DNA of 42,801 bases from Candidatus Bipolaricaulota bacterium (GTDB lineage: Bacteria; Bipolaricaulota; Bipolaricaulia; UBA7950; UBA9294): contig JAUVYF010000004.1 in assembly GCA_030603215.1 (NCBI GenBank), positions 1 to 42,801 on the forward strand, in the 5' to 3' direction. This document shows, piece by piece, positions 10,128-12,884 of the stretch. Both the position numbers and the translations under genes were made by a program. Each line of letters starts with the position of its first letter. Position 1 is the first letter of the stretch. Below the pieces are notes generated by a model. It was given only the letters and a program-made list of their open reading frames with translations, ran no database searches and had not been told where the DNA came from.

Positions 10128-10165
10128 TAAAGATGAACGTTATGGCAGCGCCCACGCGCTAGATT

Positions 10166-10192
10166 GTAGATTCGAGTCCTACCCGGGAGCCA
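10166..10192 (+). other. tRNA 3'-end fragment
   Basis: GTAGA-TTCGAGT-CCTAC forms a T-arm (4 of 5 pairs) with the canonical TTCGANT loop, followed by CCGGGAG and CCA. No matching 5' acceptor strand (CTCCCGG) or intact anticodon arm lies upstream, so this is a fragment, not a working tRNA. tRNA 3' ends are common integration sites; this one precedes the direct repeat and the DUF3800 cassette. Confidence 0.4.
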
Positions 10193-10238
10193 GCTCCCTA
10201 AATAAATTGTTGCCCCTGCTTATAGAGGCTTCATTTGG

Positions 10239-10368
10239 GTAAGATAGAAGCAGTCCAACGTCCAATGTCCAACGTTGAAAGACAGTAACCGGTAATGGGT
10301 GAAAAGACGGTCGGGAGTCGAGAGTCGGGAGTCGGGAGTCAAGGCCAGGAACTGAAAACTGATAACTG
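10239..10368. repeat. Left direct repeat bordering the DUF3800 cassette
   Basis: 130 nt nearly identical to 12447-12569. The visible difference is tandem copy number of a 7-nt unit: three TCCAAYG units here against two on the right. It includes a run of GTCGGGAG/GTCGAGAG 8-nt units and the module GAACTGAAAACTGATAACTG. The two copies enclose about 2.1 kb containing the DUF3800/BECR genes. Confidence 0.85.
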
Positions 10369-11081
10369 ACGACCACTGAAGGAGTGACATAGAACCGCTA
10401 CTACCCTGCATTCCCGGGCCCTGCCCTGGACCCGATCCAGGGCATACCGTCATGCCGGACGTGATAAGCCTGCCCTGTGAAATCTTGTTGTGCCTTGTAT
10501 TTAACAGGGCCTGCCCCGTACTTGATACGGGGGCATCCAGATGTCGAGGAACGGTCTGACCGTTCCTGTTATGTTCTGTTTAACGTCGGACACAGGTTCC
10601 GACGCCACGCACGATCTGACGGCTGATAACTGCCTCTTCCTGAAAGCTGATCGCTGATTGCCAGCGGTTGCCTATCCTGAAAACTGATAACTGCCTTTCT
10701 TCCTGATACCTGCCTTCAACTTGCTTCCTCAAGCAGCAGCCTGAAGGGTTCATGGCCCTCGAATTCATAGAGGAAGTAAGATGGCGGGTCGTTCGTTTGA
10801 ATCACGATCTCGTGCTATCATAGGTCATGTATTATAGGAAGTTCACCAATGGACAAGGAGGAACTCTACAGCCTAGTTGGATAGCGCCCGCATCGTCGAG
10901 GAGACAAGTCAGTGAGTGTCAAGTCATGTGGGAAAGCAGAAAGGATGCTGGGACCGGGTTCTTGCGATCCAACAGCATGGAGGAGTTTTGTAACTAGAGC
11001 TCACCTTTCGATTCTTTCGTGGCCCTTTACTCGTTAACCGCGAGCGATCCGGCTGATGGTTGAGTAGTGGAGGTCAAAGCT
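10369..11081. other. Gene-free stretch with palindromes
   Basis: No convincing gene. 10429-10442 is a CCCTGG/CCAGGG palindrome and 10514-10532 a CCCGTACTTGATACGGG palindrome. 10547-10567 is a perfect 10-bp inverted repeat, AGGAACGGTC T GACCGTTCCT, operator- or terminator-like. 10580-10760 repeats modules found at 27.73-27.83 kb and 12.55-12.62 kb (GACGGCTGATAACTGCC, then CCTGATACC, then CTTGCTTCCTCAAGCAGCAGCC). 10870-10890 resembles a tRNA D-arm (AGTTGGATAGCGC) but no tRNA can be folded from it. Confidence 0.5.
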
Positions 11082-11792
11082 ATGGCCCAAGTCTTTAACG
11101 TGTATTGCGACGAAAGCTGTCATCTTGAACATGACCGGCAAGAGGTCATGGTATTGGGTGCGGTCTGGAGTCCGATTGAGAAAACTAGAGAAATTGCCCG
11201 TTCCATCCGCGATATCAAAGAGGGACACGGGCTCGCTCGTCACTTCGAGATTAAGTGGACCAAGGTTTCTCCGGGAAAGATCGATTTCTATATCGACTTA
11301 ATCGATTACTTCTTCGAAGAGCCGGATCTCCACTTCCGTGCACTGATCGTTGCGGATAAGGCCGGGCTCCAGCACGAAGCATACGGGCAAAGCCATGATG
11401 AATGGTACTTTAAGATGTACTTTACCATGCTCAAAGCAATCCTTCGGCCCAACGCCTCCTATCGGATCTATCTGGATATCAAAGACACGCGTAGCTCTCC
11501 AAAGGTTAGGAAACTTCAAGATGTACTCTCTAATAACGCTTACGACTTCTCACGGGAGATCATTCAAAAGGTTCAGACCGTCCGCTCGCACGAAATTGAA
11601 CAAGTACAATTGACCGATCTGTTTATCGGAGCTATCGCTTATGTCAATCGCAACCTTTCCGGCAGCAGTGCCAAGCAGCAGTTAGTGGAACTCACCCGCG
11701 AACGTTCGGGATATACCTTGACTCGCTCCACACTTTACAGGGAAGATAAACTCAACCTATTCCGGTGGACTGCCCAGGAGCTGGATGAATGA
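11082..11792 (+). CDS. DUF3800 protein (RNase H-like fold)
   Basis: 236 residues. DUF3800 signature at the N-terminus (VYCDESCHLEHD, the acidic strand-1 motif) and at the C-terminus (EQVQLTDLFIGAIAYVNR, where family members carry QLaDlilGA). Conserved Asp and Glu residues fit an RNase H-like active site, but activity is unproven in most members. The family is found in mobile and defence-related loci. The start is ATG 11082, because GGAGG lies 8 nt ahead; the ORF-track start is a GTG upstream. The next gene overlaps by 4 nt (ATGA), so the pair is translationally coupled. Confidence 0.85.
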   Translation: MAQVFNVYCDESCHLEHDRQEVMVLGAVWSPIEKTREIARSIRDIKEGHGLARHFEIKWTKVSPGKIDFYIDLIDYFFEEPDLHFRALIVADKAGLQHEAYGQSHDEWYFKMYFTMLKAILRPNASYRIYLDIKDTRSSPKVRKLQDVLSNNAYDFSREIIQKVQTVRSHEIEQVQLTDLFIGAIAYVNRNLSGSSAKQQLVELTRERSGYTLTRSTLYREDKLNLFRWTAQELDE

Positions 11793-12286
11793 CGGAAAAG
11801 CCTCGGTGGTTACCACCAATGCTGGATCTTACAGGTAGGTCAGAAAAGGAGTGCCTTTCTATTCTGTATAAGATATTCACGAAGGACTTCAAGAACGACC
11901 ACCCTTCGTTCCGTGGATTGCCGGTATGGTGGAATCGCAGAATTCTGCTAGAGCCACGCTACGAGGAAGGCTTCTGGCACCTTGTTAGTAGAGAAGAGCC
12001 TAGTACAGTTAGTCGCCATTTGGACCTTCCTAGGGCAGAGCGGTTACCTTGGTGTAAGCCGGTTCTCACCAACTCTGATCCACATCTGACAAAGGTCTGG
12101 AACTACCTTGAGCGCGGACACCGGTTGCGTACGTATGTTTGGCTCGAGCCTTGGGATTACTGCGTTGTCCTCGAGCGCCGTAGTCTATCGGGAAAGCAGA
12201 TTATCTGGCTTATCACGGCGTTCCACGTAGATGGCGCCTCAAGAAGGAGAAATGTACGGAGGAAGTTCGAGGAACGAGAAGAGTAA
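11789..12286 (+). CDS. Putative BECR-fold (phage-type) nuclease-like protein, partner of DUF3800
   Basis: 165 residues. Not certain. The layout EEGFWHLVSREE, RAERLPWCKPVL, RTYVWLEPWDYCVVLE and LITAFHVDG followed by a basic tail matches, from memory, the BECR/PBECR group of small RNases (barnase-EndoU-colicin-RelE fold). There, a His near FWH, a Ser/Thr and Arg residues would form the active site. It could be a toxin or effector with the DUF3800 protein as nuclease partner or neutraliser. Seen: ATGA overlap with DUF3800, a basic C-terminus, no signal peptide, no membrane segment. The pair lies between direct repeats. Confidence 0.6.
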   Translation: MTEKPRWLPPMLDLTGRSEKECLSILYKIFTKDFKNDHPSFRGLPVWWNRRILLEPRYEEGFWHLVSREEPSTVSRHLDLPRAERLPWCKPVLTNSDPHLTKVWNYLERGHRLRTYVWLEPWDYCVVLERRSLSGKQIIWLITAFHVDGASRRRNVRRKFEEREE

Positions 12287-12287
12287 A

Positions 12288-12443
12288 ATGCATTCGCCGC
12301 CCGAATGGACGGCGAAAGATCTCCTTCTACACATGGCAGATGAGGCTAATACTATTATAGGAACTGAAAGCGTTAAGTCAAGCGGAAGAGTTGCCCGACC
12401 CACGGCCCAAGGAATTCCGGGGACGGATACCCCTAAATGGTGA
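12288..12443 (+). CDS. Small ORF after the DUF3800/BECR pair
   Basis: 51 codons beginning 2 nt after the BECR-like stop (MHSPPEWTAKDLLLHMADEA...). The position would suit a third operon gene such as a small antitoxin, and GAGGAACGAG lies upstream. Against this, the last 15 or so codons fall in a repeat module that recurs at 40418 (GIPGTDTPKW here, GIPRTHNPKP there). The C-terminus is thus repeat-derived and the ORF may be fortuitous or truncated. Confidence 0.35.
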   Translation: MHSPPEWTAKDLLLHMADEANTIIGTESVKSSGRVARPTAQGIPGTDTPKW

Positions 12444-12569
12444 TGAGTAAGATAGAAGCAGTCCAACGTCCAAGGTTGAAAGACAGTAACCGGTAATGGG
12501 TGAAAAGACGGTCGGGAGTCGAGAGTCGGGAGTCGGGAGTCAAGGCCAGGAACTGAAAACTGATAACTG
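12412..12569. repeat. Right direct repeat with GGAATTCCG tail module
   Basis: 12447-12569 is the right-hand copy of the 10239-10368 repeat. It is preceded by a module, GGAATTCCGGGGACG then ATACCCCTAAA then GTGATGAGTAAGATAG, which recurs at 40418-40470 downstream of the HEPN gene. Within it GGGG acggata CCCC can form a hairpin. The same kind of tail therefore follows two unrelated toxin-like gene pairs. Confidence 0.8.
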
Positions 12570-12884
12570 CCTTTCTTCCTGATACCTCCTTTAACTTGCT
12601 TCCTCAAGCAGCAGCCCGAGATGGAGCTTGTGTCCCCTGAATTGCAGCCACGGATCCACACGGATAGATACCGATCACATATCCAATAAACATTATTATG
12701 GAGAGGTTTTAATCTGTGTACATCTGTGTTAATCAGTGGTTCATGAAATAGGGTTTTGTGTCCCGCGAATTCCTACTCGGCCCAGCTAGTTGAGCATCGA
12801 CGAAGCAGCCACTGCTATTCACTTGCGCAAATAGTGGTAGATTCGTATTCTATGCGTACTTCATAAAGGGAGGAAACGAGATCA
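12570..12884. repeat. Repeat modules upstream of the MscS gene
   Basis: 12570-12618 is the CCTGATACC / CTTGCTTCCTCAAGCAGCAGCC module, 12618-12645 a GTGTCCC..GAATT module, and 12646-12742 a full ACGGAT-family repeat ending AATCAGTGGTTC and running into GAAATAGGGTTTTGTGTCCC. A weak promoter for the MscS gene (TTGCGC, 17 nt, TATTCT) may lie at 12824-12852. Confidence 0.7.

Follow-up and report, generated by a model that had tools for sequence, protein, structure and literature searches.

A DUF3800 gene and its 165-residue partner, lying within a 42,801-nucleotide stretch of DNA from a Candidatus Bipolaricaulota bacterium (the window, that is, the whole stretch analysed; it constitutes contig C113 of a draft genome of 1.74 Mb that is 87% complete), are accompanied by a third, convergent element, a conserved small RNA (sRNA) of about 60 nt. 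The architecture of this three-part module, composed of a predicted RNase HII-like protein (A), a coupled partner (B) and the sRNA, is well supported by sequence and prediction, from which the whole of the evidence comes. We propose, with a probability of about one half, that A and B would constitute a nuclease pair controlled by an inhibitory sRNA, which phages may have copied as an anti-defence device. The A-B pair is already known as the candidate anti-phage system PDC-M04 and occurs also in phage P1; what is new here is an unannotated sRNA, absent from Rfam, as the third partner of this catalogued candidate defence pair. The sRNA gene (12284-12381), which the earlier sequence-only reading of this DNA did not mention, tells more about the locus than any of its other parts.

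A conserved pair of overlapping genes

The protein-coding part of the module consists of the following genes.

11082..11792, + strand: gene A, DUF3800 protein, PDC-M04A; 236 aa from the ATG at 11082, with the GTG at 11067 as alternative start
11789..12286, + strand: gene B, 165-aa partner, PDC-M04B (PDLC04360, PHROG 16230), distant homologue of P1 rlfB

The sequence-only reading had described two genes overlapping by ATGA, the first of them encoding a DUF3800 protein, and both statements hold: the open reading frames (ORFs) run from 11082 or 11067 to 11792 and from 11789 to 12286, and A matches Pfam PF12686 with E 1.4e-13 and 52.2 bits, above the Pfam gathering cut-off of 21. A Pfam search with B matched no family. 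The PADLOC models match both proteins strongly, A as PDC-M04A (PDLC04353, E 3e-96) and B as PDC-M04B (PDLC04360, E 1e-38), in adjacent, overlapping genes of the same order, which places the locus in PDC-M04; the models of that candidate system cover proteins, whereas the window locus adds the convergent sRNA. In the literature searched, neither a paper naming PDC-M04 nor an experiment on its anti-phage activity was found, and it is a candidate system. B also matches PHROG 16230 (E 2.5e-8), which is labelled as a replication protein.

How often the two genes adjoin, a survey already suggested in the sequence-only reading, could be read from 85,462 species genomes, in which 69 loci with B were found in many phyla. 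An A homologue was detected by HMM in 63 of the 69, directly upstream of B in nearly all, with an overlap of -4 in 29 and of -1 in 14 of the 63 loci, so that a conserved two-gene module is supported. Aligned homologues of A have a mean column identity of 63%, those of B one of 43%. Within the phylum the distribution is patchy (about 6 in 100 genomes); the pair also occurs as rlfA-rlfB on P1-like plasmids (spelled rflA-rflB in the record) and as an unnamed pair in Rhizobium, and viral sequences scanned for close relatives of B yielded none. The immediate neighbours across loci include type I specificity, HsdR and GmrSD genes: among 64 neighbouring proteins scanned, ten carry a type I specificity domain, five HSDR_N and two GmrSD_N, and PADLOC specificity models match 12. 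The PDC-M04 matches of both proteins, the conservation of A with B and these type I restriction-modification neighbours together uphold the earlier view of a nuclease-type module, likely acting in defence.

In one related genome (G022) A is 83% identical to that of the window and B only 37%, and homology resumes just 3' of B, a pattern that looks like an exchange of B. The same genome holds, on contig C298 (L123), a degenerate second copy, in which the 38 N-terminal residues of A are separated by about 1.2 kb from the C-terminal portion of a B. At two other loci (L115 and L122) the A homologue forms the C-terminal end of a very long ORF of about 1300 and 900 codons, respectively, possibly a fusion. 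A second, distant DUF3800 gene (20% identity) is present in the window's own genome on contig C25 (L020, 3710-4384, minus strand), amid genes whose sequences read as methylase and specificity subunits of type I restriction systems.

Predicted folds of the two proteins

A is predicted to be an RNase HII-like DUF3800 protein. Its AlphaFold2 model (pLDDT 90.7) retrieves RNase HII/H2 in Foldseek with E 2e-5 and probability 1.0, and all 21 PDB matches with E < 0.001 are RNase HII, H2 or HIII. The acidic residues D10, E11, D132 and D179 are, among others, invariant in 59 sequences, and these four make up a candidate DEDD-type site, as read from the alignment. The likeness to RNase HII lies in the predicted fold and perhaps in the invariant acidic residues, while A is about 10-16% identical to its PDB matches and, unlike RNase HII, is nearly always paired with B. 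When solved relatives were sought by sequence, none was found for B and only the C3HR3_9r_shift4 chain (E 0.0023) for A.

The earlier assignment of B as BECR-like is weakly supported. The model is confident (pLDDT 93.2) and its C-terminal half has the arrangement alpha-beta4-alpha, but no PDB entry matched with E < 0.001, and the PBECR sequence search gave no match for the window protein and one marginal PBECR3 match (E 0.06) in 1 of 60 members. The weak structural matches were to 7vd7, a toxin-antitoxin complex, and 6n90 (YoeB/ParE), and the sole strong one was to an uncharacterised phage protein of 28% identity. Residues E59, F62, W63, H64, R76, R82, W88 and T143 are invariant. A BECR-type nuclease is a possible but unproven identity for B.

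A convergent small RNA behind the pair

Directly downstream of B, the opposite strand carries the following elements.

12284..12347, - strand: conserved sRNA of ~60 nt, convergent with A-B, matched by the covariance model; start (~12347) and end (~12284) deduced
12376..12381, - strand: -35 box TTGACT of the sRNA promoter, from promoter analysis
12354..12359, - strand: -10 box TATAAT of the sRNA promoter, with a 16-nt spacer, from promoter analysis
12321..12343, - strand: 5' hairpin of the sRNA, UCAUCUGCCAUGUGUAGAAGGAG, with the SD-like AAGGAG, from alignment and pairing
12293..12316, - strand: terminator-like hairpin of the sRNA, UUCGCCGUCCAUUCGGGCGGCGAA, from pairing
12284..12291, - strand: U-rich tail of the sRNA, GCAUUUUA, directly after the terminator-like hairpin

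The sRNA was found through a search for a third reading frame, conserved DNA being evident just 3' of B, and then through an alignment of the downstream regions, in which paired and covarying segments emerged. In the window the covariance model matches positions 12287-12349 with E 2.9e-19. The alignment argues strongly that the minus strand is under selection for structure: paired cells amount to 95.1%, 13 of 18 pairs have changed on both sides, and covariation reaches 0.404 against 0.184 in shuffled alignments (none of 500 shuffles being as high), whereas partners slid along the alignment are only 41-55% paired. The strand is indicated by 84 G-U against 6 A-C cells and by folding energies, which are better for the minus strand in 46 of 51 copies (mean -27.7 against -20.7 kcal/mol). 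At a fixed distance lies a putative sigma-70 promoter with 2.77 mismatches on average, compared with 4.32 +/- 0.11 for shuffled and 4.52 for other-strand sequence, and in 45 of 64 loci the -10 box ends 8-10 nt ahead of TCATC. It is from such features that we infer the transcript itself.

Other identities for the element were considered and set aside. An RNA of the plus strand is rejected by the promoter, wobble and energy tests; a third small protein by the fact that the ORF beginning MHSPP, which covers the element in the window group, is not kept in frame elsewhere; and an integron attC site or transposon end by the finding of no conserved partner element upstream of A. Nor is the element a known Rfam RNA, since no family of Rfam 15 matches it in the window or in 26 other loci scanned. 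This includes the DUF3800 RNA families (DUF3800-I RF02969, DUF3800-IX RF02968, DUF3800-VIII RF03075 and others), which resemble the sRNA in being small structured RNAs linked to DUF3800 genes and yet gave no match in the window at E up to 5, nor in the other loci scanned. To our knowledge, Rfam's DUF3800-associated RNAs have no known function.

Linkage of the sRNA to A and B

A, B and the sRNA stay together across many bacterial phyla and on P1-like and rhizobial plasmids, the sRNA sitting behind nearly every intact B. A regular expression finds the element at 66 of 72 B ends, the six misses comprising four contig ends, a single mismatch and one B that reads through the element. On the P1-like plasmid, where the DUF3800 gene and B overlap by 1 nt of stop and start codon, the same element follows rlfB, as it does the B partner in Rhizobium. 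Because the loci of the sRNA alignment had been chosen for B, it is the searches of whole genomes with the covariance model, rather than the alignment, that constitute the independent test. In all 15 records holding the pair, one strong copy adjoins B, one record having a second, weak match besides. Among 100 genomes of the phylum, matches lie beside B in G000, G005, G016, G022 and G061, with one further match at E 0.007.

Two copies in the phylum have an unusual setting. In G016 a relict sRNA match (contig C11, L133 2683-2746) is preceded by a B-like remnant, apparently a B C-terminus, in a locus with neither A nor B detectable, as in a decayed cassette. In G044 (contig C16, L134) the element, at 1213-1283 with E 8e-6, lies about 150 nt 3' of a different gene, an ORF at 305-1066 judged from its sequence to be of DUF3800 type and not accompanied by B; the sRNA may therefore go with other DUF3800 types too.

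A scan of 299 Pseudomonadota genomes for the sRNA alone gave six strong matches: the starting genome, two new A-B loci (G261 and G378) and three solitary copies, in whose genomes no A was detected. Readable -35 and -10 boxes were recognised by eye at two of these three, and the third lies amid genes whose protein sequences appear to be those of phage terminase and portal. Whole records were checked for A in 31 cases, and the absence of A or B from a short locus by HMM is no proof of absence from the genome.

Solitary copies in phages

The sRNA occurs without A in many viral genomes. Scanning IMG/VR viral contigs with the exact 5' hairpin pattern gave at least 141 loci; among the matches listed, 141 loci, the sRNA stands alone at 108, has B adjacent at 20 and lies on a sequence ending too soon at 13. 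Of 25 whole viral records searched, 24 lacked A, the exception belonging to a locus with B adjacent. Given that these loci were picked by the 5' hairpin, only the second stem-loop and the gene context are independent there. The second stem-loop is kept in the solitary copies (mean z -2.4, compared with -0.1 for control positions; 88 different sequences among the matches listed). Promoter spacing is not conserved in them (5.8 mismatches, again among the matches listed), so that these copies either are transcribed differently or do something else.

Several of the solitary viral sRNAs, among the matches listed, fall within tRNA arrays carried by phages. Bacillus phages of the SPbeta/phi3T type have the sRNA 100-200 nt from an Rfam DUF3800-VIII sRNA, and about 60 nt further on they have a unit of the same layout as the sRNA with another stem. 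In phi3T the element falls within an unannotated gap of about 700 nt between phi3T_54 (yonK) and phi3T_55 (48642-49357, corresponding to L305 2143-2858).

Proposed mechanism and alternatives

The mechanism that we favour, an inhibitory sRNA acting on a nuclease pair, would operate as follows. A and B, the latter translationally coupled to the former, would form a nuclease complex acting against phage in an abortive or toxin-like manner; the sRNA, produced from its own sigma-70 promoter and ended by its own terminator, would bind A and/or B and hold the complex in an inactive state, in the manner of an RNA antitoxin; and the solitary phage copies would be decoys that keep the complex silent. 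A precedent for phage mimics of antitoxin RNA is found in escape mutants of phage TE, which make a pseudo-ToxI RNA (PMC5086642). The sRNA would in this reading be an inhibitor rather than a guide or substrate. The type III toxin-antitoxin systems (ToxIN, CptIN, TenpIN) likewise combine a nuclease protein with a small RNA, and phages are known to carry mimic antitoxin RNA for them. The analogy is incomplete. Type III systems are defined by a tandem-repeat RNA antitoxin located upstream of the toxin and co-transcribed with it, an arrangement that the window locus does not have: its sRNA is single-copy, downstream and convergent, with its own promoter, and no ToxN-type domain was detected in either of its two proteins. 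This difference in layout counts against an inhibitor, as do the unconserved promoter spacing of the solitary phage copies and the annotation of P1 rlfA/rlfB as lytic-replication genes, which are non-essential (PMC10695390).

The main rival to an inhibitor, to which we would give a distinctly smaller though substantial share of belief, is that an A-B ribonucleoprotein nuclease has the sRNA as its guide, scaffold or cofactor; copies in phages would then be decoys that load A-B with the wrong RNA, or the molecules sensed by the system. DUF3800 proteins are RNase H-fold proteins linked to non-coding RNAs, and appear as accessory nucleases in some CRISPR loci (PMC10910872; PMC12669027), which is in keeping with such a role, as are the existence of a single conserved sRNA with invariant bases in its 5' hairpin and its 1:1 linkage with A-B. 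Against such a role, the terminator stem is the one variable, spacer-like part of the sRNA, and solitary copies are numerous in phages devoid of A.

It is improbable that the sRNA is purely regulatory, an antisense or terminator element that lies where the A-B mRNA ends and adjusts its amount, with phage copies of unrelated role. The sRNA does overlap the stop codon of B, and its complementarity to the 3' UTR is complete, but the predominance of G-U over A-C cells noted above means that pairing is optimised on one strand, and the sequence of the 5' hairpin is kept across phyla and in phages lacking the genes, a conservation for which cis-antisense has no need. Slightly less credence still is due to the idea that the sRNA acts on ribosomes as a translation decoy through its SD-like AAGGAG, A and B processing or degrading it. 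A box of the type AA(G/A)GAG is found in nearly all aligned copies, partly paired within the 5' hairpin, yet some copies have AAAGAG, a weaker anti-SD match, no start codon is seen at a fitting distance, and the association with A-B would be left unexplained.

Very little weight attaches to the view that proteins of the RlfA/RlfB type serve lytic replication of phages and plasmids and that the chromosomal copies are remnants. The P1 genes are annotated next to repL, with a possible link to lytic replication, neither a defence role nor an sRNA being noted in the descriptions consulted; the label of PHROG 16230 points the same way. Against this stand the dispensability of rlfA/rlfB in P1 (PMC10695390) and the intact, coupled copies in many phyla, often beside restriction genes.

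Flanking repeats and the question of mobility

Three further features flank the module and are not part of it.

10164..10194, + strand: tRNA-Asn(GTT) 3' fragment, 94% identical to intact copies
10239..10372, resuming after ~304 nt at 10677-10744, no strand assigned: interspersed repeat, left copy
12447..12620, no strand assigned: interspersed repeat, right copy

From the sequence alone, the pair had been taken to lie between near-identical direct repeats, with a tRNA 3' fragment just outside on the left, and to move or excise by recombination between them. The tRNA fragment is real (~10164-10194, 94% identical to the 3' end of tRNA-Asn(GTT), of which contig C112 of the same genome bears an intact gene); it is an orphan just left of the repeat, and no integrase was seen among the window genes scanned. 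The repeats are likewise real, 10239-10372 and 12447-12569 being 98% identical over an ungapped core of 109 nt, but neither their extents nor their specificity survive. The right copy runs on to about 12620, matching 10677-10744, so that about 304 nt interrupt the left copy, and the family matches 45 places in the same draft genome: window 10239-10372 and 44 others are interspersed repeats of short tandem motifs such as CGGGAGT and CTGAAAA.

Related loci give no sign of a cassette bounded by these repeats. G005 and G016 carry the pair at other sites and share with the window only 11062-12383, G022 shares A and a short segment beyond the 3' end of B, and in all three the flanks are unrelated and have no homology to the window's repeats. 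The search for an empty site brought no clean example; the closest, in G003, a genome of the same genus lacking the pair, has similar repeat DNA ahead of the MscS gene that it shares with the window, but a different gene lies beyond on the upstream side and the site is thus not a clean one. Direct repeats surround the pair at 4 of 37 testable loci, which is no clear excess over shifted control positions, where the count is 0-3 in about 40. At one locus in G022 (L054), a direct repeat of 78 nt, 95% identical, lies on both sides of the pair, and the flanking ORFs on both sides have the peptide GLTEEELRYILDSQ in common. Despite the two repeat cores that flank the pair, a two-gene mobile cassette excising through them is the least credible reading of the locus, since the repeats are genome-wide and flanking repeats are not in excess elsewhere.

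Significance

The locus ties one DUF3800-linked RNA to a specific conserved protein pair. The solitary copies provide a concrete hypothesis, an inhibitor RNA set against a phage decoy, which might account for the RNAs as well as for the candidate defence pair, and, the pair being a defence candidate present in phage P1, it is testable in E. coli K-12. More tentatively, and with rather more doubt than conviction, we suggest that DUF3800 systems may form a broad class of RNA-controlled nuclease defences, against which phages (SPbeta-like phages, large phages with tRNA arrays, and prophages) would carry solitary or tandem cognate RNAs as a general anti-defence, the class of the RNA being matched to the class of the DUF3800 protein.
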